Assembly: GCA_002077065.1 (NCBI GenBank) | Contig: NAJO01000024.1 | Location: 682,001-746,000, forward strand | Length of the DNA: 64,000 nt | Source: Cryoendolithus antarcticus | Lineage: Eukaryota > Ascomycota > Dothideomycetes > Cladosporiales > Cladosporiaceae | Direction: 5' to 3' | Shown here: piece after piece, positions 4,264-20,715 of the stretch | Numbering within the stretch: the first letter of the stretch is position 1 | Layout: each line of letters starts with the position of its first letter | Notes under the pieces: model-generated | What the model saw: the letters and a program-made list of their open reading frames with translations, nothing else | Database searches by the model: none | What the model was told of the DNA's origin: nothing | Translations under genes and position numbers: made by a program

Positions 4264-6024
4264 ATGGCGAACGCCGTATACCCACCTTACCCTCCGACAC
4301 TGACTCAAGCCGAGCAAGAGTACCTCCTCACCAACCTCAAGGATTGGTCGATCACCCATGGCCTTGCTGTACGGCCGACCAGCTCATATGTTACTGAAGA
4401 TCTCGACCCGGCAAGGGCTCTGGCGACGACAGCTCCTGTAACGCTTTTCCCAAGTCTCTTCCCGAGGTCTTGCTTCGACCAAGCTCGGGCTGTCAGCCAG
4501 GCGTACAGCGAGCTGTACTCTGCTATTGCTGCAGACGAGGAATGGCTTGGTGAGATTGTCAAGGAGTAGGTCAGATGAATCTTCCCCTTGTCATATGGCT
4601 GTTCTCAGCGTAGCTCGTGCCGGCATGACTTTGTTACATGCCTTGACTTCGGCTCAGTCTCAAATCTGCAGCTCTTCACTCCACTGCCATAGATCGACGC
4701 TCTGACAGTCATTCAACAGGCTGTTGGAGATTGACGACTTCATTGAGAACCTCTGGAAAGTCCATCTTGCCGTGAAGAAGGAAGGCTATGCTCAAGTCGG
4801 TAGTACTTGCACCCCACATGCTTATGACCCACTGACAGTGCATAGAGCCTCCAACTCGGTCTCTTTCGCTCAGACTACATGGTACACGTGTCAGACAGGA
4901 ACAGCGACTCAAGACTCTCTGTGAAGCAAGTCGAGTTCAACACTATCGCGTCCTCATTCGGTGGTCTCTCGAGCCAAGTGGCCTCTTTGCATCGCTATCT
5001 ACATTCCGTCGGTGCATACCCTGAAGTCACATCATCACTCATTAATGATGCATCGCTTCAGTGTAGCGGCTCGGTCCCGCAACTCGCGTCAGGCCTTGCG
5101 AAAGCACATCAGGCGTATGTTGAGTCAGACAAGCCTAATCGACCAGTCTGTGTCCTCTTCCTCGTGCAAGATGTGGAGCGGAACGTTTTCGATCAGCGCC
5201 ACCTAGAGTATGCTCTCAACACAGATCATGGCGTCCGCACATTCCGTCTCCCCTTCAGTCGAGTCCTGGAGGATACGAGTCTCGATCAGGACCGCAAGCT
5301 ACTCTACACTCCGCCATCATTTTCAGGCAAGCAGTGGGAGGTCTCAGTCGTCTACTTCCGAGCCGGCTATGCACCCACAGAGTACACCTCACAGCGTGCC
5401 TGGGATGCGCGACTACACATTGAGCGAAGCGCGGTTATCAAGTGTCCAGGCATATTGACACATCTCGCGGGTTCAAAGAAGGTGCAGCAAGTACTCGCCA
5501 CGCCTCAATCGCCACACCTCGCACGTTTCTTACCCGACAAACTTGCTGCAGACAAGCTGCTTGCCACATTCGCTCCGATCTACCCACTCGACGAGAGTGA
5601 AGCGGGTCTCGAAGCTCGCAAGCTCGCGACAGATCCACAAACGGCGCAGAAGTACGTCCTTAAACCTCAGCGAGAGGGTGGCGGCAACAACATCTACCGG
5701 TCTGAGATACCCGGATTTCTGCAGAGTCTACCCAAGACAAAGTGGCCAGCCTACATTTTGATGGAGATGATCGAGCCGCCTACACAAGGTAATGCGATCT
5801 TCCGCAACGGTGAGGTTCAGAGTGGCGAGGTGATCTGCGAGCTCGGTGTGTATGGAGCTTGTCTGTGGCGGGACAAGGTCGAGAACGAGGTCGTGAAAGG
5901 TAGAGAAGTGCTGGAGAACTTCGAGGCAGGGTATCTGCTACGTACTAAAGGAGCAGGGAGCAGTGAAGGGGGTGTTGCTGCTGGATTTGGAAGTGTCGAT
6001 AGCTGTTGCTTGCTCGACCTGTGA
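4264..6024 (+). CDS. GSH2: Glutathione synthetase, three exons
   Basis: ATP-dependent enzyme that joins glycine to gamma-glutamylcysteine, the second step of glutathione synthesis in the cytosol. Exons are 4264-4565, 4720-4795 and 4846-6024, giving 518 residues, the normal size. The exon 1 to 2 junction restores the expected LLEIDDFIENLWKVHLAVK run. The second junction gives a LQLGLFRSDYM run, which requires an atypical GTCGGT donor; the nearby GTAGTA donor does not keep phase. The glycine-rich ATP-grasp loop is visible as KPQREGGGNNIYRSEI, followed by the ILMEMI strand. The C-terminus has the family ending GGVAAGFGSVD. The role is firm; only the exact second intron boundaries are uncertain. 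Confidence 0.93.
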
Positions 6025-6604
6025 GCGCCGCAATTCGATCGGCGCTTTCGTCAAGTAGTCAAGCTCTTGAGACGTTCGCCTCGTAGCCTCTGTCATTCAT
6101 GTAGACTACCAACAACCAGGTTTAAGCGGAGGCGTGGGACAAAGTGATCATCCCGTCGCCTTGCCAAGATCTGCTGACTACACACCTCAGCCCGGAAGTC
6201 TCTCCAGCTTTCCGGCTCTCCAATCTCTCCGAACCAACATCCATCATCGGATCATCCCACACCTCCACCACCAGAAACACGACGCGTGGCCCACACAATC
6301 GTGACACGTCCTTACTACCAAGTCCGACTGGGCGTACGTCTGCTTGCACAGCATCCTGCGGACTGGCAGCTACTTTGCTCTGGGTTTGTAGTTGCCATGG
6401 CGCGGTGCACAGCCTTGTCAGAAGTCTAATATTTCGGGATCACCAACGGTGGCCGGAGAGCGGTGCGTGTTGCGCTGGGCATTGGGGATCTGGCTGGTTC
6501 GCACGGTTGGTTATCTCGACTACTCGTCTCCTGGTCCATCTCTGTATTCCTTTCTCTGCAGTGTCATTCTACCATATCCATCTCTTTCGCGTTATACCCT
6601 CAGT
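6025..6604. other. Intergenic region upstream of the b561-like gene
   Basis: About 580 bases between the GSH2 stop and the b561-like start, both on the plus strand. Open frames here run through without recognisable protein similarity. The stretch just before 6605 is pyrimidine-rich, as is common in fungal promoters. Nothing else was seen. Confidence 0.4.
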
Positions 6605-7526
6605 ATGGCGATGTCAACATTCAGACAAGGCGCGGTTCTTCTCGCACTCGGTAAGACTTAATAGTTGTGACCACAAACGAACCTCGCTAATGTCCTCAGT
6701 AACCCTCGCAGCAGCTCAATACGGCCCTCCAAGCGGCTCCGGCTACACTGGCGGCAACCCTTACGCGAATGGCGGTGATGGCGACGGCAACGGCAACTCT
6801 GGCAGCTCGGGCTTCGGTCGAGGAGGCTTCGGCGGCGCCCGCGGTAACGCGAGCACAATCATAACCGCGCACGCCGTCCTCGGCAGTCTCGCCTTCGTCC
6901 TCTTCTTTCCTCTAGGCGGCATCCTCATCCGCGTCGCATCCTTTCCAAAGCTCTGGCTCGCGCACGCAGGCCTCCAAATCGTAGCCTGGATCTTCTACAT
7001 CATTGCTTTCGGGATCGGCGTGTGGATGACGGTGAACTACTACACCTTCAAGAGCGCGCATCCGATTATTGGAATTGTACTGTTTGTGCTGTTGGCTTTC
7101 CAACCAGCACTGGGATTTGTGCATCACATCATGTTCAAGAAGCATTCACGGAGGGTGGTGTGGAGTTATGGACATATCTGGCTTGGGCGGATAACAATCC
7201 TCGGTGGCATCATCAACGGTGGGCTTGGACTGCGACTGGCACAGCAAACGAGGTTCCAGGCGCCTAGCACAGGCGCTGTAGCCGGCTATGCCGTTGCTGC
7301 TGCGATCATGGGTGGCGCGTATTTGGCGAGCATCATATACGGCGAGAGGAAGCGGAGCAAGGCCGCTAAGGGCTCGCAAGCACCGTACAAAGAGGTCTCG
7401 CGAAATGACTACTCGCGGAATGACTACGAGATGGGCTCGCCAGGTCACAATGCCACACGCTCAGGCGCACCTGAGGGAGTGGGCGAGTACTACAAGCAGC
7501 AGAAGAGCGGGCAGACGTACGCTTAA
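6605..7526 (+). CDS. Cytochrome b561-domain membrane protein, secreted N-terminus
   Basis: Two exons, 6605-6650 and 6700-7526, encode 290 residues. The 49-base intron (GTAAGA...CAG) falls inside the signal peptide; splicing gives MAMSTFRQGAVLLALVTLAA with a likely cut before Gln. A Gly/Asn-rich linker follows, then five or so membrane helices. Four histidines sit in the contexts TAHAVLG, LAHAGLQ, SAHPIIG and YGHIWLGR, the pattern of the cytochrome b561 fold that carries two haems and moves electrons across a membrane. No DOMON domain is present, so this is the b561-only type. The tail is hydrophilic and basic (GERKRSKAAKG), probably cytosolic. The electron donor and acceptor cannot be read from sequence. 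Confidence 0.85.
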
Positions 7527-7946
7527 GGGACGATCGGGATCATGATATACACATAGACCGCTGTACATTTGACGCCATGCTCCGTGTACTGTGCTCTCGC
7601 TTCGCATCTGTCGCGTGTAAAGTTCATGAGCCGTAGTGATGGGAAATGGCAGGACTTGCTTCTTGCCAGACCTTGCGCTCTCGTGTCCGAGCTTTGCAGC
7701 CCCTACGAGACACTGACTTACTACCATTCCTAAGGTGATCTGTGGAGGGAGCCATTTCAGCTATGAGCTGACAGCCACGGCAAACACCACCTGCCAGCTT
7801 GTTACTTTAACGAGGAACGCAGGTTTCAGTCTGATTTCCAGTCATGTTACACTGTTCTACAGATAGGCACCTAGCATCCAAGCACCGTGATCTTGTGTAT
7901 TTCCAGGTGCTTGAAGATGGGGCTGCCCTCGCGTGTTTAGCAACCC
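7527..7946. other. Convergent 3' intergenic region
   Basis: About 420 bases between two converging stop codons. It should hold both 3' untranslated regions. No gene, repeat or RNA was recognised. Confidence 0.4.
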
Positions 7947-10736
7947 TCAAGAGACCTCGTCGATCACATCCATAGCCCCTCCTGTCCCAGCTTCCGCCTC
8001 AAACGCATCCAAAGCATCGTTCATATCCGCCGCCGGCTCCTCCACCGGCTCAGGTATCGGCTCTGGCTCGACCAACTCGCCCACAGCCGCCTCGCCGACT
8101 ACGGCCTCCTCCACAGCAGCTTTGCGCCTCCAAACCCTCACCCATCTCTCACCCCACTGCATGATGATCGCCCTCTCCTCTTCTCCGCCCTCATACCGCT
8201 CCATCATCTCGTCTTGGCTTCCGTTTGCGACACTTGCTACAGCATCCTCGATCGTGGCATACAGATCTCTCAGCGTCTGTCGCTCCCTAGGCAACACGGC
8301 ATCGATGACCTGGCGCTGATCGAAAGGAAGCGAGGTGTTTGCTCGCTGTTGCAGAACTTGACGCACGCGTGCCGACACCTTCGCCACAGTGTGGGAGACG
8401 AGCTCGTACATCTGCGCCGAGGCCAGTGCCCTGCCACGGTCCATTCGCTCGTGCAGTGCCCACTCGATGACGGACATCGGCGTAATGATGGTATAGTTGA
8501 GCAGCTTGTCCACGATGTTGGCCGCGTTGCCAGGATGAAGACTCCAGAAGTCTACGACACTCGAGATGATCTGCCTGCGAGCGGCTTCGGACTGCGTTGC
8601 GAGAGCCGAGAGCTTGTCTTTCAGACGATCGATGTTAGAGATCACGTGAGACATGCTCTTCGAGCCAACGTTCAAGATGCAGGTCATGTAGACGTCTGTG
8701 CTTGATACCAGCGGATCAGGCACACCGTGGCTGGAGGCTTGGTCACTTATGTCATCGAAAATGGCTTGAATTTGTTCTTCGGACGCCTTCTCCTTGAGTA
8801 GCTTGAGGAGAGCGCGCGCCTCAGTGGCGTAAGGTAGGTTGTCGCTGGCATACTTGAAGTCGGGGACATCTTTCTCTTTGCTGGCAGGTACCAAGACCTG
8901 GAAGGGATCCGGCAGAGTCTCGCGAATGCGCTTGGCAAACGACAAGCGAATCTCCTTGTCAAGTGCGCCATTGATGAATGCTCTGCGTGGGTGAATGTCG
9001 GGAAGTGGGATATCGGCGGTCCTAACATGGTCAGTAATCGTCGTGGATGGGGAGGGATGAGTACATACCACTCCTGCCACTTCCATCGGAACTCGAAGTT
9101 GCTGAGGTGATGTGCGAACCAGTCCATGAATCGATACTGCAGCTCGAGGTCAAGCTGATCGATATTGCGGTAAATGAAGCGAATGGCTCGGCCAAGACTG
9201 GGTGCGATGGCTTGAGGCGCGAGCTTGCACACCTCCGTGATCACCGAATGGTAGCAGATGAGACGATGCTGCGGTGCTGGAAGCTTGAAGATCTGCGAGA
9301 AGAGTGCATCGATCCCAACGTCCTCCGGCTTCCAGGTTGATACGCCACCGGTATACTCCTTGAGCCTGTCGAAACCCGTCTCACGCCGGGTGAAAGTGCC
9401 AGGAGTCCAGAAGTTGTCGAGCTCGTTCAAGTACTTCGATGTGGCGTTCCTGTTGAAATCTAAGATGTTCACCGTGTCCACAACAGCATCGCGTATCAGA
9501 GAGCATGCGATATGCGTCGTCGGTGGCACAGACTCGACGTCCTGATCTGCGTAGAGGGAGAAGAACACCTCAGGAAAGACCTCACCGGAGTTCGCGTAGA
9601 TTGGCGACGGAACCTCGATGACCGGGAACGTGTGTTTTTGAGATGGTGCATGCTCCCCGTTGCCGTTGGTGTCTCCATTGGCTTCCGCCTCGCGCTTCAC
9701 AGGTTCGAATGCCCTCGGTATGCAGCTCAGTGGCCAGCCTTTGTTCGTCTCTTCTTGCAGTTGCCGTTGGACGAGCGAGATGACGCTACCAAACGCCATA
9801 GGCCGGTTGTCGTCGTCGCCGCCCATCGCCGGGTACGGGTTGACCAGCGCATCGAGGCTGTGCGGAGCTGTTGCTACGATCTCGGTCTTCTCGAGTAGTT
9901 CGGCAACTTGCTCTTTGATCGCATCGCTGTCATTTGCTGCGATTAGGTACGGTATTGTGAGTAGTATGATCTTCACGAGCTCGATGCCGATGGCCTGGAA
10001 TATTGTCAGTCGAGTGCAGCTTAAACAGGTCGACTACAACATACATCCTCGGAAGAAGCTGTCTGGAGATCAACCGCTCGGTCGAACAGCTCGTTCAGCA
10101 CGGGAACGACACCGTCCTCCTCGAAGAGCGGGCTAAGACAGGCAATGAACCGGAGCAGCAGCTTCACCGTTCGCCATGCGCCCTCTTGCAAAGCTTCTTG
10201 GATCTGCAATGTCGCCGCTGCTACAACCTCTGCAGCAGCTTCCGACTTGTACTCATTCGCGTAGAGCACTGCCGCGGCGATGAAGGGAATCTTCAATGGC
10301 TGTTCAGCAACACTGTGGGGACGTCAGCCGATGTATAGCGCAGACTCATTTCCAGATACGCACACTTTGAGCGCTACAGTGACGAACACCTCCCTCACGT
10401 ATTCATCCCCCCAATTGTCGGCTGCAAGCTTGCCAACGTTGGAAAGTGCGCCCTTGATGTCCACCGGCTCGCGGCCCTGGGCGTCCTCGGCGGCTTCGAC
10501 CAGTACGCGGCGAATGCGAGTTCCAGGTGGTATTTCTTGTCGAGCGCGCTGGTTGCGGAAGTTGCCATGTTCATACTCGTCGTCATCTATGTGCCATTGA
10601 GTCAGTGAGGTGGATAGATTCACTCGCGCTGCAATGCCATACCTCTTCCTCTCTTCCTGCGATCGTTCCGTGGACCGCGAAATCCTCCTCCTCCTCCACC
10701 ATTCCTATCATCGCGGCGGCGATCAACGTCTGCCAT
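7947..10736 (-). CDS. CBP80: Nuclear cap-binding protein subunit 1 (CBP80), five exons
   Basis: Large subunit of the nuclear cap-binding complex, which with CBP20 binds the m7G cap of new transcripts and aids splicing, export and decay. Exons on the minus strand are 10736-10643, 10586-10364, 10312-10045, 9994-9069 and 9021-7947, totalling 861 residues with all phases consistent. The N-terminus is basic and Gly-rich (an RRRDDRNGGGGGFRGPRNDR stretch), typical of the nuclear signal region. The MIF4G fold starts in exon 2 (DIKGALSNVGKLAADNWGDE) and continues through EQPLKIPFIAA and GIELVKIILLTIPYLIA. The exon 4 to 5 junction restores FRWKWQEW followed by ADIPLPDIHPRRAFI, a conserved CBP80 block. 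A run of TG dinucleotides lies just upstream of the start codon. Confidence 0.92.
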
Positions 10737-11069
10737 GACTGCAGTGTGTGTGTGTGTCTGTCGAGTTGGGTATGTTTGAGTGTTTGCGATCGATCATGTA
10801 CACCCCCGACGCGCTTCGCGGATCCTGAGAGTGAGCTTCCCAGAGCCGCTAGTCTCGGCTGAAGCGTCCCGTGTTCCGTGACTTATGTGAGCCTTGCTCC
10901 ACCCGCCGATTCAACTCGGATCCCGAAAGCACAGCTCAGTTGCACAGCTTTGGCGAGACGAGAAAGGCTCACTGTTGGATGCATTGGGCTGCGGCAACAG
11001 TCTGTTGACCTGCCATGCCTCCTCATGTCTCACTGAACAGAGTAAGCCATGATGTAGGCGAGCTTCACA
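10737..11069. promoter_or_regulatory. Divergent promoter region CBP80 / HET fusion gene
   Basis: A compact 333-bp space separates the CBP80 start (minus) and the HET-gene start (plus). A short TG dinucleotide run sits at about 10741-10757 in the CBP80 leader. The HET-gene start is preceded by CTTCACA, a good fungal initiation context. Confidence 0.5.
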
Positions 11070-13955
11070 ATGCGCCTGCTCAATGTCCATGATCTGAGCT
11101 TTCGCGAGTTCTACGGGGACAACACTCCACCATATGTCATCACTTCGCACCGCTGGTCGGACGATGAGGCTACCTTCAAGGATGTTCTCAAGAAGCGTAA
11201 TACGTCCAGCAAAGGCTGGGCCAAGATACAAGGCTTTTGTGAGCGAGTGAGACAGGACAATGAGGTTCTCAAGACACTTGAGAACGCTACCTGCTGTGAT
11301 TGGCTCTGGATCGACACAGCATGTATCGACCAAAGGAGCACGGCCGAGGTCAGCGAGTCCATCAACTCTATGTGGCGCTGGTACGATTCCGCAGTCGAAT
11401 GCCATGCTTATCTTGCCGATGTCCTACCATTCGGTGCTGATCGAGGGATTGTAGAGGTGCTGGATGATTTCGCAGAGAGCGAGTGGTTCCAACGCGGCTG
11501 GACGCTGCAAGAATTACTGGCGCCGCGATGCGTAATCTTCTTCACCCAAGCTTGGGAGATCATAGGCCATAAGTGCTCACAATGTGACACTAAGCGGAGC
11601 TGCGAGGGTGCTGGACCACTTCTCAATGTCAGAGTCGCTCAAGTCACCGGTATCCCTGAAGCCGTCCTCCGTGACTTCGAGCAGAGCAAACCGCTCGGCG
11701 TTGAGGAAAAGATGAAGTGGCAACTCGGACGACGTACGACGCGACTCGAAGATCAAGCATACTGCTTACTGGGCATTTTCGATGTCAACATGCCGTTGAT
11801 CTACGGGGAAGGTCTTCGGGCGATTGAGCGCCTCGAGCGTACTATCTTTGAAGAGCTCCAACGGCCGTGGAAATCTCAGCTCGATTTCGACCTAGCTGGG
11901 GCTCTCAAGGCAAGTCTCGTGTCGACTGCGCTGACTGGCGCCAGAAGTCTTGGTCGACCCTTGGCAATTATGCGGTTTTCTGACGTTGACGGCGAAGTCG
12001 CTTGCGTCTGTGACTTCGCTGACGATGATGGTGATTTGATCGCTTGCGATGTTTGTGAGAAGTGGCAACATCTTGTATGCTACTTCGGCTCGAACTTCCA
12101 CGACGCTTTGACGGCCGACCTCGAGCACCGTTGTTTCACATGTCAGCCGCGATCGATCGATGCGCAGGGTGCACGCATGCGGCAGCGTGAGATACGTAGG
12201 GCGCGTGCTGCACGAGCCTCAGCCAGTGCTGCAGAAGGAGCCAAGCGAAGAACAAGTGCGGTGGCGATCCCACAGGCGCAAAAGCGAAATCGGCCACGGC
12301 TCACGCAGAGACTTGCTGCGCCGAGGGCAAATGAAGCATATGCTAGCTCTAGCACGCCGTCGATGCCGTTCAATATGCCGCGCAAACAACCAGTCATGAA
12401 AGCTGCGGCTGGAGTGCAAGGGCAGTCCACTGGGAACGCTGATGACGCTGGGCAGACTTCATCCGCCACAACGATATCGAAGGTCATGCGAATCCTGGTT
12501 GACGAATTAATGACAGATGAGTCCGAATTTGTTGACAATGCCCGCTTCGAGGACCTTGGTATTGAGTCCCTGCTGGCTTTGACCATCTCTGGCAAACTCA
12601 GTCAGCAGCTGGGCATTAGCATCGACCCCACGATCTTCACTACCTATCCTACAGTTGGCCATCTCAAAGCTTACATCGCCCAACTAGATGTGCCTCTTAC
12701 ATCGGGATCACAGAAGGACCATGTCAAGATGGATATTGATGAGCCACTTAATCTAGATATTGGGTCCGCGGACCAGATGTTCGAATTCTCCTCGACTTTG
12801 GCCGATCAACACGGCCCAGGTTTTGCAGATGACTTCAACTTTGACAGCTTCTTGAACGATGAGAGCACAGCACATATGTCGCCGGACGACATCAATCTCG
12901 GCGCATCAGATCCAGCATGTTCGTTTGCGCATGCGGTGGCACCTTCCTCATACACTGGCTCAGCACTTCAGCCCTACTCCGACTGGAAGTATCAGCCGTA
13001 CCCATTTTCGCCAACGACATACGGGCCTTACAGTGTTCCTATCCCGCAGCCTGCACAGGTTACTGAGCTACCAAGCGTTCGGCCCATCATACTTGCTGAG
13101 CCATCAAGCGTCGGACCCCATGATGGACGTGACATGGCCTCCGTCTGGAACTCGAAGATCTCACAGGTCTGGGACTCGAAGATCTCACAGGTCGGGAACT
13201 CGAAGATCTCACAGATCCCTGACGCCACTATGACGAACCATCAGTCTCCCTCGCTCGACTCCCTGGTAGTGCGGGCTCACAAATGTCCCATCTCAACATG
13301 CGAATACCATGTCAAGGGCTTTGCTCGTATCTACGATCTTAACAGGCATACCTTGACCCATTTCAAAGGCGCCATCACCTGTGGCTTCTGTCCTATCGAT
13401 GACACGAATGGCGCGAAGACTTTCAACCGCATCGATGTTCTGAAGCGGCACTTGACTTCCGTCCACGGCGTCCAGCAAATAGCGCTGAGCTCGGATCGTA
13501 CCCGCAACGAAACATCGTCACCATCCAAGCAGGGAACAGCAGGGGCAGGAGCAACATGCTCACTATGCGCAAAGCCATTCACTTCCCCCCAAGCCTTCTA
13601 CGACCACCTCGACAGCTGCGTCGTACGCGAGCTCGTTCCTAGCGTTGAGCCAACCAACACCTACCTAGCAGCCTTTCTATGCAATAAGCCGAACTGCACA
13701 TCTTCCTTCCGGTTCGTCGCGGACTTGGAACGGCATCTTCGCGCGGTGCACGGCAGCGAAGAGCAGCTACGGAAATTCGAATGTCAAGTTCCTGGCTGTG
13801 ATTATCGGGGCGAGAAGGCATTCCTGAGGAAAGATCACCTGATGAGACATCAGAGAGCGCGACATGGGTTGGAGTATCAGCATCGTGCCCCTCATCCCAC
13901 TGACGCTGTTCATCGAGCTAACCGGGAGGCCATGGCTGGGCCAGCAGGGCGCTAG
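11070..13955 (+). CDS. HET-domain protein fused to PHD finger, acyl-carrier domain and C2H2 zinc fingers
   Basis: Single open frame of 961 codons from an ATG in a CACAATG context. Residues about 15-250 form a HET domain: PYVITSHRW, then WLWIDTACID, RGWTLQELLAP and LIYGEG. HET domains act in fungal self/non-self recognition and cell death. Residues 312-356 carry a full C4HC3 PHD finger starting CVC and holding the CDVCEKWQH core. Residues about 468-545 are an acyl-carrier/phosphopantetheine domain with the motif LGIESLLAL, where Ser500 is the expected attachment serine; the downstream SGKLSQQLG and YPTVGHLKAYI resemble non-reducing polyketide synthase carriers. From C739 to the end lie four or five C2H2 fingers. 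Residues 692-715 are three tandem copies of an eight-residue unit. No catalytic PKS domain is present. The individual domain calls are strong; the joint function is unknown. Confidence 0.85.
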   Translation: MRLLNVHDLSFREFYGDNTPPYVITSHRWSDDEATFKDVLKKRNTSSKGWAKIQGFCERVRQDNEVLKTLENATCCDWLWIDTACIDQRSTAEVSESINSMWRWYDSAVECHAYLADVLPFGADRGIVEVLDDFAESEWFQRGWTLQELLAPRCVIFFTQAWEIIGHKCSQCDTKRSCEGAGPLLNVRVAQVTGIPEAVLRDFEQSKPLGVEEKMKWQLGRRTTRLEDQAYCLLGIFDVNMPLIYGEGLRAIERLERTIFEELQRPWKSQLDFDLAGALKASLVSTALTGARSLGRPLAIMRFSDVDGEVACVCDFADDDGDLIACDVCEKWQHLVCYFGSNFHDALTADLEHRCFTCQPRSIDAQGARMRQREIRRARAARASASAAEGAKRRTSAVAIPQAQKRNRPRLTQRLAAPRANEAYASSSTPSMPFNMPRKQPVMKAAAGVQGQSTGNADDAGQTSSATTISKVMRILVDELMTDESEFVDNARFEDLGIESLLALTISGKLSQQLGISIDPTIFTTYPTVGHLKAYIAQLDVPLTSGSQKDHVKMDIDEPLNLDIGSADQMFEFSSTLADQHGPGFADDFNFDSFLNDESTAHMSPDDINLGASDPACSFAHAVAPSSYTGSALQPYSDWKYQPYPFSPTTYGPYSVPIPQPAQVTELPSVRPIILAEPSSVGPHDGRDMASVWNSKISQVWDSKISQVGNSKISQIPDATMTNHQSPSLDSLVVRAHKCPISTCEYHVKGFARIYDLNRHTLTHFKGAITCGFCPIDDTNGAKTFNRIDVLKRHLTSVHGVQQIALSSDRTRNETSSPSKQGTAGAGATCSLCAKPFTSPQAFYDHLDSCVVRELVPSVEPTNTYLAAFLCNKPNCTSSFRFVADLERHLRAVHGSEEQLRKFECQVPGCDYRGEKAFLRKDHLMRHQRARHGLEYQHRAPHPTDAVHRANREAMAGPAGR
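13143..13214 (+). repeat. Three tandem 24-bp units inside the HET fusion gene
   Basis: Units at 13143-13166, 13167-13190 and 13191-13214 differ at only a few bases. Each encodes VWNSKISQ or a close variant (residues 692-715), between the acyl-carrier domain and the zinc fingers. The unit length is a multiple of three, so copy-number change would keep the frame. Confidence 0.93.
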
Positions 13956-14657
13956 TCTGGCATGGGTGATAAGCGATCTAGTATAGAATAGCTACCGTGA
14001 AGTGTAAAGGTTTTGTACTTGATGGTGAGTGTAGGGTTCCGCTGCGATACTGTAAAGCTTTGAGGCTCTCGTAGGAAATGCTTTCTTTGCACTCAATCGA
14101 CAAGCTACGTACTAAGCTCTCTAAAGCCCAGTCCAGCGATGCCAATCGGGTAGTCTATCATATTCTCATACTAGCAACATCATCCTCCCCGTGCATAAGC
14201 CGTGCACTCCAGAAGATTTTGCCATCGCCCGCTCGCTAGCATATGGGAATCGTGCTTTTCGCGCTACCGCAGTCCAGCCGTGGATATTCGCCATGTGAAC
14301 GCCGTCGCCCAAATGACCGATTCTCTCTAATGTACTCTCACGAACCGCCAGAGCAGGTGACTTCGCCAGCTTCTCGGGTTGCGAAGCACTGACCCGCAGC
14401 AAGCTTACTCTCGCCTCTCCTTATCTGCCCCCAGTCCTTATGCTGCCAATAGAAAACTCTCTTGCCATGCACCAAGCTCTGTACCAGTTTTACCCATTCG
14501 TCCGGATCATGTCCTTTACATGCCAGGCCCGAATGGCTTGTTGTGGTATGTTGTGATCCAATGGCGCATTGCGTTGCGTAAGTGTTGTCATCATGGGAGC
14601 GTAAAGAGCGTTGCATGGGAGTGAAAGGTGATTCTTGATAATCCGTCTATTCCATTC
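13956..14657. other. Convergent 3' intergenic region, HET gene / GSK3
   Basis: About 700 bases between two converging stop codons. Short frames on both strands show no recognisable protein. No repeat or RNA gene was seen. Confidence 0.4.
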
Positions 14658-16169
14658 TCAATCCAGCCGTGCAAGCATCTGCTCTCTTGGCATCGGCACC
14701 AGGTTGTCAATGTCAAGGCCTTTCGCTGCGAGGATTGGCTTCATGTGGGCGGGAACGAGTTGGTGATTGAGGTGAGGTGCGATAGATAGTTCTGTGATTG
14801 CTCATGTCAGTAAAAGCTCGAGAGTGCGCAGGTGGCCATGCAACGTACCATGATGCGTGAAGTCGAACAGCGTCGGTAGGTCCTTCGGTGGTGCATTGGG
14901 GTGACGCGAGTCGGCCAACTTCGTGCTCGGATCGCGCAGCTCGTCGAAGAAAGGATGCACCATGGCGTCGATCGCTGACAGGCGCTGCGTGGGTGTGTAC
15001 TCGAGCAGCTTCGAAATGAGATCGATTGCGTTGGGATCCGCCTTACGGAAGACCTACTCGCGTGTCAGTCGCGAACTTCACTCCCTACCATCATAACGTA
15101 ACACATACCTTGCCAAACGGGTGCGGCTTGATCTGCGGGAACTTATGCTCCATGTAATTCGGGTTCATCGTGCGAATTTGATCGCGTGTCGGCGTTCCAA
15201 GCACTTTGATGATCTCCACAAGTTGGTCGATGCCCGATTCTCCAGGGAACAAAGGTTGCCCGAGCATAAGCTCCGCCATTACACAGCCGGTTGACCAGAC
15301 GTCTATTGAAAGTCAGCTCAAGGCCTCCAATACTCCGACAATCCGCACATACCAATCTTTGTAGTGTAGTTCGTGGCGCCAAAGATCAACTCTGGCGCCC
15401 GGTAATATCTCGAGCAGATGTACGACACATTCGGCTCATTCTCCACCAAAATCTTCGCACTCCCGAAATCGCACAACTTCAGTATCCCGCTCGCCGGATC
15501 CATTAGCAAGTTCTGCGGCTTGATGTCCCGATGGCAGATACCCTGCGAGTGGATGTACGCAAGTGAGCGGAACAGTTGGTAGATGTACAGCTTCACCTCG
15601 AGGATGGGCATGGTAGTTTTGAGTTTGTTGAAGTGCCTGCTCGCGCGGTAGACGGTCTCCGGCACAAACTCCAGCACCAGGTTCAGGTATACCTCGTCCT
15701 TCTGAGCGGCCATTAGAGCTGTTTGTACACCCATGAGGTTGTCTGTATCGCGTACCCGGTCTCCGTTGGAGTAGTAGAATGCTTTGAGCTCGACGATATT
15801 GGGATGTCGGACGATGCGCATGATTTGGAGTTCTCGGTTCTGCCATTGTTGTCAGCACGTGATTCGAGGATTGCGAAATGTGGCATTCACATACCTTGAA
15901 GCGCTTGTCCTGGAGCACTCGCTTGATGGCTGCATCCTCGCCTGATGGAGAGAGCTTGGTCTGGAAGACCACACCAAAGGAGCCATTTCCCACTATCTTG
16001 CACTGCGTGTACTGCATCTCCTTGGTCTCGCCCGTCAGACCGTCTTGCACCTTCTCGCGGATGACCTCTGCAAGTTGGGTCAGCATATATCGCAGCATGC
16101 ATACTACTAAGATGACCACTCACCACCCATCCTCAAGCTCTGGAAGGCCGACGGCCGGCTTTGCGACAT
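14658..16169 (-). CDS. GSK3: Glycogen synthase kinase 3 (GSK-3) Ser/Thr kinase, seven exons
   Basis: Constitutively active CMGC kinase acting in signalling, development and stress responses. Minus-strand exons are 16169-16124, 16067-15895, 15839-15756, 15701-15353, 15302-15109, 15053-14849 and 14791-14658. They encode 394 residues, the usual fungal length. Visible kinase features are GNGSFGVVF (glycine loop), AIKRV (ATP lysine), [11 protein letters not shown] (catalytic loop), LCDFGSAK (DFG) and [12 protein letters not shown], whose tyrosine is the activating phosphosite. The intron 15755-15702 is 54 bases and has no stop in frame; skipping its removal would insert 18 residues between YYSNGDR and KDEVYL, where the family has none. 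The start MSQSRPSAF matches the conserved fungal N-terminus. Confidence 0.95.
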
Positions 16170-18605
16170 GGCGATGCGTAGGGCGTGGTGCTAGCTGAGC
16201 GCGGTAGGGTATGGCGGCGTATTTCGGCAGTCCGCGGTCGCAATAATGTCGTCCGTGGTGGGCGGATGGAGGGGTATGTCAGGTGATTTCGAGTGAGTTG
16301 CGCAGGTGTTGTAGGAGTTGCAGGCCTGGTGTAGTGCAAGCACAGCAGCGACTACGCCTCGAGGTAGGTGGAGTGCGGTGCGGCGGGTGGAGGAGGCTGA
16401 GAGCGGCTACAAACTGCAGGCAGGCGCGAACAACAGATTGGATCTGGTAAAGTAAATTTGGCGCACTTTCTCATTCACAAAGACAACAGTGATGATGGTG
16501 GTAGTTAGGATGTGGTATGGCACGGCAGGCAATGTTGATGTATCGTAACAGCAAGATGCAGCATGAACAGTAGTGTGCAGGCACGGCCAGAGATGAGGGG
16601 CTGTCCTCACGTGCTACTGTGCTGCTGTTGACGCTGCGTGCACTGACCAGAGAGACCTGTGACCACCACCAACCCAGGCCCATCCTCCCCTCGAGGAATC
16701 CACAATTCCACCCAGAAATGACAGCAACGTTAGGCTAGTGCCGGGAGGTAACGAACAACCGCAATATGACGTCCCTATGCTTGTCGTAGTCTAAGCTCAC
16801 ACACGCTCGTCTGTCAACAAATTCAATGCCCATGCACGCCGCGTGTGTTGCTGATGCGATGATGGCTGAGCATGCGAGCATTCACGTGCGCATCTCACAC
16901 AACTCGCATCCAGATCCAAGGCAGTCTTCGATGCAGTGGCCTAGCTGCAGCAAGCACCAGCTGACGCATTGTGGGGCCTGCGGCGGACATTATTGGAAAA
17001 GGCTCAGGGCGAGGTCACCTGCGTGTCGAAAATACCAGTCCTTGGCGGATTGTCCGCAGCAGCAGGGTGAGATGAAACACGCACCACCTCAAACCACCAA
17101 CACGCACTCCTCCTGCTGATCCTCCGCTGTAATCATGCACTCCTCGTACGCAGTACTGCCATTCCTCCAACACCCCGAGAAGTGAAGTCCGCAAACTCTT
17201 TCATCTATTTAATCCCTCATTGGCCCGCCTGTCGTTCATGTGCATATGCATGCTAGGCCGGTACCTCGTGACCGCCCGCATGTCCCTGCCCCACCGCCGC
17301 AAGCGCGCTCGTTCTGCGTACTCCTCCAAATTCTGCCCGCCTTGCCCTCAATCGCAATTTCAACCCCGCGATCCCCGCTGCCATTGGCCCACCTCACCCC
17401 CGTCGCGCACATCGAAGCTATGCCTCATATCCACGCTACGCCGCTTCGTCGGAGTGACTCGCACATGGGCATGACACACCAGCGCAGGCACATCTTGACG
17501 ATCTGGCCCAGAGCAGTGGCGCCATCTAGGCGAACGCCTCTTGACGACTGCATGCTCGAGCTCTTGTCGCGCCCGGGTAGCAGAGCGAATGCCAGCGGCT
17601 CGTCGGTTTCATGCACGTAAAAGTCAAGCTCCGGCCCAACCGGCTTGCGGACCAGATCATGCACGCACTGCCAAAGCAGCCTGCTGCAGGTACCTCGCTC
17701 CAGGTGTTGACGGAATGGGCATGGTGGGATCTCTGAGACGAGCCCAATGGTGTGGTTGTTGGATGCTCGGGAATTTGAAATGTGCGTGCCGACATGAACA
17801 GCCACGCACTGGTTGAATTAGGAAGTAGTGCTACTGCTCTACATGCGATCCGCTATCATGATGATCTCCACTGGTGGGATCTGCCTTATGAGGGACACAA
17901 GATCGCCTTGGTATGTCGAACAGTACCCGTAAATTCCTCAACTGCCAAGACGCACAAACATGAGGCGAGACAGCGCCCGGTCTCATCCTCACCACTCCAG
18001 TGTCACGAAGAAGGCAAACGTTGAGGATCGCCATGCATGATCGACGCATTGAAGCGACTTCACTTCATCACGCGGTCATATGCGCTCCCGCCAGAATATA
18101 GGTAAAGTCGGATTTGAGTGTACGTGCGAACAAAGAAGTGCAGGCGCGACCATCAGCGTGAGATCCACCGCACCGAAGCCTGACCTCAACAGCATCAGCG
18201 GTGAAGATGAAGTGTACAACGCCTGCGACACGTGCACCATCGTATGAACATTTCTCGTGTACTGACAAGGCTGACGTCCAGACTCACGTGGGACATGGCG
18301 GATGCTTGTCTCTCAACCGCAGGTGAAACACTGTCACGACATGAAGCAAAGCCGTACAGTGTCAGCTTTGTGCCCCCAGACGTAGAGAGCCGCGACGTCT
18401 CACGAAAGGAGCATGATTTACCAGCGGTCAGCTTATACGCCTCATAGGTCCGGCGTGTGCGGATCAGTACATGTATTCGTACACTGTTCGTACATTATTC
18501 GTACACCATCCTGTGCAGCCCAACTCTATGCTTATGGTCATTATTGACCTTCCCGTACGCTTTTTGCAAGGCCATCCCAATGCATTCACACCGACCGGTA
18601 AGCCT
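16170..18605. other. 2.4-kb gene-free region upstream of GSK3
   Basis: This is the longest gap without a credible gene in the first 25 kb. It runs from the GSK3 start codon to the MTO1 stop codon, so only GSK3 needs a promoter here. Short frames of up to 126 codons show no family resemblance and no paired splice sites that extend them. A small direct repeat of TTCGTACA-like units lies at about 18476-18503 (three copies). Confidence 0.4.
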
Positions 18606-20715
18606 TTAGGCCACTGTCAACCCTTGCCCGGTTCCCATACCTTCCACCGTCTCTTTCACCATCACCTCTTTCTCTCTTCTCCTTCCCATGCCCTTGACGT
18701 AAACAGCCACTCTTAACGCACCAGTCGGCGTGACACCCTCGACACGCCTAGCCATGCCCACGCTCTCAGGCTTGACCCGCTCAAGTGCTCGCTTCTCCTC
18801 GAAACTCAGCCCACTGATACTTTCATAGTCGAGATCACCGGGCAGCTTCAACTCCTCGTCTCGTGCCATCGAAGCTGCAGTGGTTGTCTGTTGCGTGATA
18901 TAGGGCGCGTATGTGCCTTCAATGTCCATACGAGCCAGTAGATCAGGAGGATACGAGGCTAGTGCAGGGATGAGGGGCAGCAGAGTGGATGTGGTGATCA
19001 AGGACGAGGCCAGAAGATCGAAGGCTGAGCGGCGGTGGGTGTCATTCCGAACCGGGAGACCTTTCGCAATCCAGGTTTGTGAGCCACTAGAGTGAGACTC
19101 GAGAAGCTCACGCAGTGCGTCCAGCTGAGCTTTCGTATCACTGAAGTGCCGCCATCGCGTCGGCGAGATCACTCCAGCAGCATGGCCCTTTGCCGTGAGG
19201 CGGAGATCGGCGTTATCAGCGCGTGCAGACATACGATACTCGGATCTCGAAGTGAACATCCTGTACGGCTCGCTCACGCCTTTGGTGACTAGGTCATCGA
19301 CCATGATGCCTATGTAGCTGTCTGCTCGAGTCATCGTGAAAGGTTCACGACCTACAGCAGCATTGCCGGCGTTGATCCCTGCGAGAATCCCCTGAGCGGC
19401 AGCTTCTTCGTAGCCTGTCGTGCCGTTGATCTGGCCTGCCAAAAAGAGCCCTGAAATGGCTTTTGTCTCGAATGTCGACTTGAGCCCGCGAGGGTCAATG
19501 TAGTCGTATTCCACACCGTACCCTGGCTGTACCAGCACAGCATTCTCCAGACCTTCCATTGCACGAACGGCAGCTTCTTGCGCAGCTGGCGGTACGGTCA
19601 TGGAGATTCCATTCGGGTAAACAAGGTCTGAGTCGAAGCCTTCTGGCTCCAGCCAAACGAGGTGCTGCGTCTTGGTGTGGAAGCGTATCACTTTACTCTC
19701 CAGCGAAGGGCAATACCGTGGTCCTTTGACGGTCTCGCGGATATGTATGCTTTGATCGAGGTTCTCGCGGATGATGTCGTGCACTGCTGGGTTCGTGTGC
19801 GTGCTGTAGCAATCCAGCTGCTTCTCCACAGCTACGCGGTCATTGAGGTAAGAGAAGGGCGTTGGTGGGTCGTCACCTGGTTGAACTTGGAGTTTGGAGT
19901 AGTCTATGGTCTTCTTGTCTATTCGAGGGGGTGTGCCGGTCTTGAGGCGGCCGAGCTGAAAGCCTGCTTCCCGAAGAGACTTGGAGAGTCCGAAGGTGGC
20001 GGCTTCGCCCATGCGGCCTGAGGGGAAGACTTCAAGACCTATGTGGATCTCGCCGCCGAGGAAGGTGCCTGTCGTGATGACTACACTGTTCGCCTTGATC
20101 ACTTCGCCGGATTCTAACCTCACTCCGGTAATCTTGCCATGTCTGCCTTCAACAGTGGACTCTGGAGAGCGGTCGACTACGATGTCTGCCACTTTTCCCT
20201 CCTTGACGGTGAGATTGGAATATGCCAGTATCTCCTCTGACATATGCTTCTTGTAAAGCTTGCGATCAATCTGTGCTCGGGGTCCCCACACTGCAGGTCC
20301 TTTCTTGCGATTGAGCATCCTGAACTGTACGCCAGCCTTGTCTGTAATCTTTCCCACAAGCCCATCCAGCGCATCGATCTCTCGCATCATCGTCCCCTTG
20401 CCGATGCCGCCCAACGAAGGGTTACAGCTGCACACTCCAAGGTTCTCGGTGGAGGGCGTGATGAGCGTTGTTCGCGCGCCTGCTCGCGCAGCGGCAGCAG
20501 AGGCTTCGCAACCAGCATGACCGCCACCGATGACTATCACATCCACTGGAGGGCTTCGGGAACGTGTCAGTGCCTTTGCCCTTTGACTCGAAAGAGAGAG
20601 CCTACCGAGCATCTATTGGGAGGTCTGTCACAGTCGCAAAGGTGCGCCTGAGCACTGCGGCCGACCTCACACGGGGCGCATGGCCCCAGAGAGCATGTGC
20701 TCGAATGGCAAACAT
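18606..20715 (-). CDS. MTO1: Mitochondrial tRNA 5-carboxymethylaminomethyluridine enzyme MTO1 (GidA/MnmG family)
   Basis: FAD protein that, with the GTPase MSS1, modifies the wobble uridine of mitochondrial tRNAs. Two exons: 20715-20606 and 20553-18606, 685 residues. Exon 1 supplies an Arg-rich, acid-free leader ([20 protein letters not shown]), a clear mitochondrial targeting peptide. The 52-base intron acceptor is the GAAG at 20554, which restores [18 protein letters not shown], the FAD-binding dinucleotide motif. Later family blocks include [41 protein letters not shown] and FTSRSEYRM. The ending [12 protein letters not shown] corresponds to the C-terminal helix region of the family, followed by a short lineage extension. 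A later ATG at 20612 lies inside exon 1 and would drop the leader. Confidence 0.94.

Follow-up and report, generated by a model that had tools for sequence, protein, structure and literature searches.

What might a fungal protein do that joins, in one chain, the HET domain of heterokaryon-incompatibility proteins, a PHD finger, an acyl carrier protein (ACP) domain of the polyketide synthase (PKS) type and a run of C2H2 zinc fingers? The question is raised by a gene in a stretch of 64,000 nucleotides from Cryoendolithus antarcticus (the window; C67:682001-746000 of a 46.97-Mb genome), a fungus whose genome was published as that of Rachicladosporium antarcticum CCFEE 5527, with 47.4 Mb and 18,781 genes (PMC5502844). 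The answer that we favour, with a probability of roughly 0.4, is that the product is a cell-death receptor outside the NLR family, in which a HET-PHD chassis carries exchangeable bait or sensor modules. The N-terminal HET domain would act as the executor, a role taken from its family, with a Set3-type PHD finger fixed beside it and a tail built from modules related to host proteins: a PKS carrier and a C2H2 factor in the window, and a HapC-like fold with C2H2 fingers in a second copy of the locus on contig C64. A foreign protein, either a parasite effector or a non-self fusion partner, would bind or modify the bait module, and this perturbation would release or cluster the HET domain, killing the compartment. 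We infer a nuclear location, the execution of death, its triggering through perturbation of the bait, and selection.

The reading frame runs from an ATG at position 11070 to a stop at 13955, 961 codons without an internal stop, and apparently forms an intact, single-exon gene for a non-NLR HET-domain protein (P0001). A preliminary description of the window, made from the letters of the sequence, had placed and measured this frame exactly, and had read it as a four-part fusion of HET, PHD, PKS-type carrier and C2H2 domains. That fusion is borne out, and the whole chain also occurs in Oleoguttula sp. CCFEE 5521, which has a full-length relative of 949 aa (P0002, 82 % identity) and, on a different contig, a partial one of 689 aa that begins past the HET domain (P0003, 98 %). 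Because the assembly of this independent strain carries both, the fusion is neither a chance frame nor an artefact of a single assembly, and we dropped the reading as two genes or a chance frame. P0001 and P0002 agree at 182/182 positions over residues 1-182 and at 78/80 over residues 183-262 of the HET region, and at 61/61 positions of the PHD finger, as against 62/75 in the carrier, 66/97 and 124/168 in the linkers, 59/73 in fingers 1-2 and 56/66 in fingers 4-5; HET plus PHD differs in conservation from carrier plus fingers with p 4.5e-14. A near-identical HET-PHD part followed by a tail (carrier, linkers and fingers) diverged by 13-32 % could have arisen through gene conversion covering the front half, or the contig assembled for CCFEE 5521 could be chimeric. 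Even so, that the window protein itself is an assembly chimera, or two genes taken as one, is very improbable, given that P0002 covers every junction, that P0003 covers those from the PHD finger onwards and that the frame is free of stops.

The evidence that carries our reading is the second copy of the locus, a frame of 1159 aa on the minus strand (L009; C64:461353-464829) with the order HET-PHD-CBFD_NFYB_HMF-C2H2. Its middle module is a HapC/NF-YB-type histone fold (4g91, E 1.8e-19), nearest within the genome to a HapC-type gene on C134 (43 %), and sits where the window protein has the carrier. Window positions 4553-7530 and 14069-20007 align to C64 458000-460956 and 468462-474364, each at 86 %, and positions 8020-10878 align to the opposite strand (C64 467898-465048, 85 %); since the inner block aligns on the other strand and the outer flanks on the same strand, the segment between them is inverted between the copies. 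Both flanks and the head-to-head neighbour correspond, apart from a single inversion, which led us to drop the notion of the C64 copy as a mere dispersed paralogue. Identity in the flanks is 83-87 % overall (85-87 % in further alignments, 78-96 % in 400-bp blocks), and that of the HET gene is 69-73 % over its first kilobase, with the rest unalignable at the nucleotide level past about position 12,084. As at het loci, a single position thus has alternative forms that have diverged strongly. Because the matching locus holds a HapC-like histone fold instead, we regard the carrier as an exchangeable insert: the fusion described earlier is right, but the unit common to the copies is HET-PHD with a variable tail, of which the carrier is not a fixed part. 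Different modules in one slot of two long-diverged copies are what an exchange of recognition specificity would produce. Two hallmarks of integrated decoys are found here, namely standalone host homologues of the modules (a PHD-SET protein, the PKS carrier, HapC and a C2H2 factor) and exchange of modules among related receptors (carrier for HapC, and a GCN4-like tail in the relative P0004).

Over the HET-PHD part (380 aligned columns, NG86) the proportion of differing synonymous sites (pS) between the window and C64 forms is saturated at 0.744, with a low nonsynonymous divergence (dN) of 0.234; over the C2H2 part (207 columns) the values are 0.737 and 0.675. Amino-acid identity is 76-79 % in the HET domain, 50 % in the PHD finger and 37.5-54.5 % in the fingers. 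In the flanks, for which out-of-frame overlaps are left out, pS is 0.146 to 0.256 for a kinase and adjoining pieces, 0.283 for a glutathione synthase, 0.314 for a b561-like gene and 0.556 for a GidA-like gene. Comparison of gene pairs in this genome (at least 60 % identity and at least 150 columns) gave 35 rows, two of which are the HET-PHD pair; the other 33, which overlap and are not all proven homeologues, span 0.169 to 0.687. These values suggest that the window and C64 forms split well before the two halves of the genome did, both being constrained in HET-PHD, with an unusual synonymous rate as the alternative.

Many of the genes that we examined occur as pairs with a synonymous divergence (dS) of about 0.2-1.0, which points to a doubled or hybrid genome. 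Protein counts of R. antarcticum are reported to be above expectation for its genome size (PMC11412873); hybridity, diploidy and duplication are candidate explanations for the doubled look of the genome.

Allorecognition is the strongest of the alternatives; it shares with the receptor model the step in which the tail recognizes and the HET domain kills, and differs in the thing recognized. The gene would then be an ordinary heterokaryon-incompatibility gene whose tail distinguishes a partner that is allelic or linked, on the pattern of het-B or het-6/un-24, with the C67 and C64 forms as two incompatible alleles in a doubled genome and the modules as a convenient hypervariable surface. We consider this rather unlikely, although it would explain why divergence is extreme in just one gene amid regions 83-87 % identical, and would account for a 24-bp tandem repeat encoding VWNSKISQ-like units that varies in copy number (three in the window, four in P0003, one in P0002). 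An inversion holding a HET gene and one housekeeping-type gene recalls un-24/het-6 (PMC2988816), and het-B has a C-terminal specificity domain and a single exon (PMC10890737). However, the paper that mentions un-24/het-6 reports the surroundings of het-c/pin-c as free of rearrangement (PMC2988816), so that inversions do not characterize het loci in general, and only a small fraction of HET genes is said to act in allorecognition (PMC12881547, PMC10890737, PMC10197012). Two incompatible alleles within one genome would also need suppression, the neighbouring protein is conserved and so makes no obvious divergent partner, and modules that resemble recognizable regulators are not predicted by plain hypervariability.

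In profile searches domain by domain, HET and PP-binding pass their curated Pfam cut-offs, and PHD, PHD_5 and zf-C2H2 fall under theirs. The HET match covers residues 22-116 (E 7.7e-9), the blocks noted earlier at the N-terminus are present, and an AlphaFold 2 (AF2) model of residues 1-297 has a mean predicted local distance difference test (pLDDT) of 89.2. In the literature the HET domain is described as a TIR-like executor, and its overexpression is reported to be enough for cell death (PMC12881547). Across 38 aligned HET proteins from the C. antarcticus genome, 30 of whose loci were taken as the best-scoring ones of their search, R142, W144, Q147 and E148 are invariant columns; Glu148 is a candidate counterpart of the catalytic glutamate of TIR domains. 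Two other pairs of HET genes, L006/L007 and L052/L053, have high synonymous divergence (dS 1.86 and 1.25).

Although its Pfam score (residues 312-358, E 1.1e-3) is below the cut-off, we regard the PHD finger as real because phmmer against solved structures matches it to the PHD fingers of yeast Set3 (5tdr, E 8.7e-12) and MLL5 (E 8.8e-9), and because the C4HC3 ligand set that the preliminary description had called complete is indeed there (C312, C314, C326, C329, H334, C337, C355 and C358). Its nearest relatives in the genome are the finger of the C64 form (51 %) and that of a protein on C70/C61 (36 %), in which a PHD above the cut-off is joined to a SET domain at 22.0 bits (cut-off 22.4). This architecture might also suit a regulator of transcription or chromatin in the nucleus that gained a HET domain, with the PHD finger reading H3K4 methylation, the fingers binding DNA, the middle module recruiting partners and no function in death. 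The PHD and zinc fingers, the HapC fold and the GCN4-like tail are all nuclear parts, and a basic stretch resembling a nuclear localization signal (NLS) lies behind the PHD finger. We think this improbable: the NLS-like motif of residues 372-412 is weak, arising also in 81/500 shuffles, finger 1 of P0002 is one cysteine short, and the fingers and PHD finger are far less alike between the copies than the HET domain is, the reverse of what a conserved reader of DNA or histones would show.

The carrier matches PP-binding (PF00550) at residues 471-536 (E 7e-13). All three copies with a carrier (window, P0002 and P0003) have the same residues at and around Ser500, in agreement with the intact LGIESLLAL motif reported at first. 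Structure prediction for the PHD-ACP region was poor (pLDDT 44.1) and only its carrier part was used; in this low-confidence model helix II begins at Ser500, as expected of a PF00550 domain, and the Foldseek matches are carrier folds, the best at E 1.2e-3 and none at E <= 0.001, with that to the CTB1 carrier at a TM of 0.81 on the target (E 1.7e-3). The nearest carrier in the genome (49 %, E 8e-21) is the first of two in tandem in a frame of 2219 aa on C88/C95, the second being 31 % identical; downstream of a PS-DH-type domain the order there is ACP-ACP-thioesterase. From this layout, with the ketosynthase (KS) part outside the scan, we take the frame to be a non-reducing PKS; that it makes dihydroxynaphthalene (DHN) melanin would be plausible for a black fungus. 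In a carrier tree of 27 rows, including the 24/29 other carrier loci of this genome that passed the filter, the window and Oleoguttula carriers are sister to the first tandem carrier (93/91), and their grouping with the second is also supported (95/97). The phylogeny proposed with the preliminary description therefore upholds its guess that the domain was shuffled from a PKS gene.

Its other suggestion, the sensing of polyketide or acyl intermediates, fared less well, with support limited to the intact serine and the kept carrier fold. A working, phosphopantetheinylated carrier bearing acyl or polyketide chains and reporting polyketide synthesis to the HET domain would agree with the identity around Ser500, the CTB1 match and the sister relation to the genome's own PKS, and also with P0002, which keeps 35/37 of the carrier positions shared with that PKS carrier but 26/36 of the others. 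We nevertheless find it quite improbable: the matching C64 copy has a histone fold in place of the carrier, Pfam found no catalytic domain for loading or reading chains, and the carrier is only suggestively better conserved than the linkers between P0001 and P0002 (Fisher p 0.07). A role as bait or decoy is preferred because it fits module swapping better.

Four to five C2H2 fingers had been predicted in the tail, and we count five, one of them C2HC; a regular expression recovers four (starting at residues 739, 830, 871 and 905), and the fifth, 771-799, was read by eye. Over 173 columns the tail is 42 % identical to a standalone C2H2 factor on C84, a gene with further copies on C24 and C141. 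Loss of a cysteine from finger 1 of P0002 (CPISAREYH), also seen by eye, together with the rapid divergence of linkers and fingers and the strong differences in HET gene number among species (PMC10197012), would suit a non-adaptive history, in which fast-turnover HET genes catch random exons and the tail has no function. That is hardly likely, in our judgement, since each of four copies has kept its frame open (961, 949, 689 in the partial one, and about 1150 codons), the module profiles are still recognized, PHD and HET are kept despite saturated synonymous sites, and the sources identified for the modules, regulators or a PKS, do not look like random proteins.

A search with the full-length protein, in which distant relatives can be missed, returned 1807 hits, of which the best 120 were listed. 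PF00550 is carried by 2/120, the Oleoguttula proteins P0002 and P0003. Further relatives are P0004, a HET-PHD protein ending in a GCN4-like basic region (Pfam bZIP_2 E 0.009, under the cut-off; PDB GCN4 E 0.002), and P0005 from Recurvomyces mirabilis, with the end of a HET region, a PHD finger and C2H2 fingers; R. mirabilis belongs to Mycosphaerellales and C. antarcticus to Cladosporiales. In a HET tree of 22 rows, of which P0003 and P0005 fill less than half of the columns, a single clade (99/99) takes in all the HET-PHD proteins; the forms from the window, Oleoguttula and C64 are united to the exclusion of P0004 and P0005 (100/98), and the window and two Oleoguttula rows are nested within that group (98/93). 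Word-limited searches with single regions found only P0002 and P0003 as further HET-PHD or HET-carrier proteins, an undercount, because P0004 and P0005 share the PHD finger yet surfaced only in the full-length search. Absence of the fusion from all relatives had been named at the outset as grounds for doubt: the full fusion is present in CCFEE 5521 but was found nowhere further in the word-limited searches, and HET-PHD is wider (P0004 and P0005). Other listed HET relatives have precomputed Pfam matches to YEATS, SH3, Zn2Cys6, NACHT and what we take to be ankyrin and TPR. Our own Pfam scan recovered HET-YEATS in P0012 and P0016 (with a RING over the cut-off in the former and under it in the latter), Zn2Cys6-HET in P0055 and HET-SH3 in P0036. 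YEATS, a family of histone-acyl readers (PF03366), occurs in 9/120 listed relatives (P0012, P0013, P0014, P0015, P0016, P0019, P0021, P0022 and P0034).

Several results weigh against the receptor model. Pfam gave no NACHT or NB-ARC match in P0001 (E <= 10) or P0122 (E <= 0.05), and Foldseek returned 0/620 matches to the HET model at E <= 0.001, so that the link to TIR rests on the literature and a middling Z. The full HET-PHD-carrier-C2H2 fusion was found, in the word-limited searches, in this genome and CCFEE 5521 alone, and the sample comprises two forms and one related strain. Among the 38 HET proteins from the C. antarcticus genome, taken as single open frames without splicing (one of them, L063, truncated where its locus ends) and scanned with Pfam, only the window and C64 forms bear such modules, and with 2/38 the pattern of module fusion is not shown to be general here.

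More tentatively than for the single gene, we propose a Dothideomycete family of non-NLR HET-PHD death receptors that would capture copies of host domains (chromatin, CCAAT-factor, bZIP, C2H2 and polyketide-carrier) and use them interchangeably as bait, with alternatives kept for very long times at one locus, here carrier and HapC as an ancient pair within an inversion. Most HET genes have been described as of unknown role, and integrated decoys in fungi a poorly documented possibility (PMC5658179, PMC10890737, PMC10197012); for fungal NLRs a zinc-finger NLR is cited from one personal observation (PMC5658179). In open-licence PMC we found no literature combining HET domain, PHD finger and heterokaryon incompatibility, none on YEATS and HET domains in fungi, and none joining heterokaryon incompatibility, integrated domain, transcription factor and NLR; HET and acyl carrier domains appeared together in the heterokaryon-incompatibility literature there only as gene-cluster neighbours. 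If our proposal is true, the protein would correspond, in a fungus, to the integrated-decoy receptors of plants, with a PKS carrier serving as bait, and such baits would point to host proteins attacked by fungal parasites. Two natural versions of one receptor, one defined module apart and with known standalone homologues, make the bait idea directly testable.

Table 1. Features of the HET-PHD locus in window coordinates
Feature	Coordinates	Strand	Basis
Single open frame, 961 aa, HET-PHD-ACP-C2H2 protein (P0001)	11070..13955	+	Full-length relative P0002, partial P0003
HET domain, residues 1-262	11070..11855	+	Pfam HET E 7.7e-9; AF2 model
Glu148 in R142-GWTLQ-E148-L	11511..11513	+	Invariant in alignment of 38 HET proteins
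PHD finger, Set3/MLL5 type, residues 308-368	11991..12173	+	PDB 5tdr E 8.7e-12; PHD+SET homologue on C70
Basic stretch, residues 372-412, bipartite-NLS-like, weak	12183..12305	+	Motif search
Acyl/peptidyl carrier domain (ACP), residues 466-540	12465..12689	+	Pfam PP-binding; tree; fold matches
Ser500, phosphopantetheine attachment serine, in LGIESLLAL	12567..12569	+	Also in P0002, P0003
24-bp tandem repeat, 3 copies, VWNSKISQ-like units, in frame	13143..13214	+	Sequence
Zinc finger 1, residues 739-764	13284..13361	+	Regular expression
Zinc finger 2, residues 771-799	13380..13466	+	Read by eye; aligned to standalone factor
Zinc finger 3 (C2HC), residues 830-850	13557..13619	+	Regular expression
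Zinc finger 4, residues 871-894	13680..13751	+	Regular expression; Pfam
Zinc finger 5, residues 905-932	13782..13865	+	Regular expression
Inverted segment between C67 (window) and C64 copies	7530..14069	.	Breakpoints within 7530-7951 and 13956-14069
Head-to-head neighbour, MIF4G-like nuclear cap-binding subunit, coding pieces	7950..10704	-	Pfam; matching stretch at C64

Besides the HET gene, the inverted segment (Table 1) contains the head-to-head neighbour, a gene of the MIF4G cap-binding type (MIF4G_like_2 E 7.6e-69, MIF4G_like E 5e-63; the piece at 10327-10704 is without a match), which from these families we take to be CBP80-like. Its pieces have a pS of 0.33-0.60 overall; the end nearest the inversion breakpoint, at 7950-8750, has 0.55-0.60, compared with 0.33-0.39 in the others. 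We make no claim for this gene as a linked partner, because its protein is conserved between the copies (84-95 % in its pieces) and the distant GidA-like gene has a comparably raised pS.

How does the window protein compare with known systems? With the carriers of non-reducing PKSs (C88/C95, CTB1 and PksA) it shares the fold and serine motif, 49 % identity linking it to the first C88/C95 carrier, whereas no other PKS domain was found in its chain. The PHD finger resembles those of Set3/MLL5 in its C4HC3 ligands and WQH core, and the genome holds a PHD-SET homologue, but here the finger is fused to HET, with no SET domain found. HET-YEATS proteins (P0012 and P0016) likewise join HET to a zinc-finger-like region and a chromatin reader, although they form a separate HET clade and their reader is other than PHD. 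The Neurospora het-6/un-24 haplotypes also pair a HET locus with an inversion between diverged haplotypes (PMC2988816); they differ in that the neighbour here is conserved in protein. Comparable, too, is the non-NLR BH of Podospora het-B, which has an N-terminal HET domain, a long single exon (apparent in our case), a variable C-terminus and strong divergence between copies; its tail consists of HAD and lectin domains, in contrast to PHD, carrier (or HapC) and C2H2 in the window and C64 forms, where a role in specificity is our inference. Finally, set beside plant NLRs with integrated decoys, a concept outlined in PMC5658179, the window protein has HET in place of TIR or CC, NB-ARC/NACHT was not found and no LRR is known. 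The plant systems share with it an executor of cell death fused to host-related domains that are exchanged between receptors.

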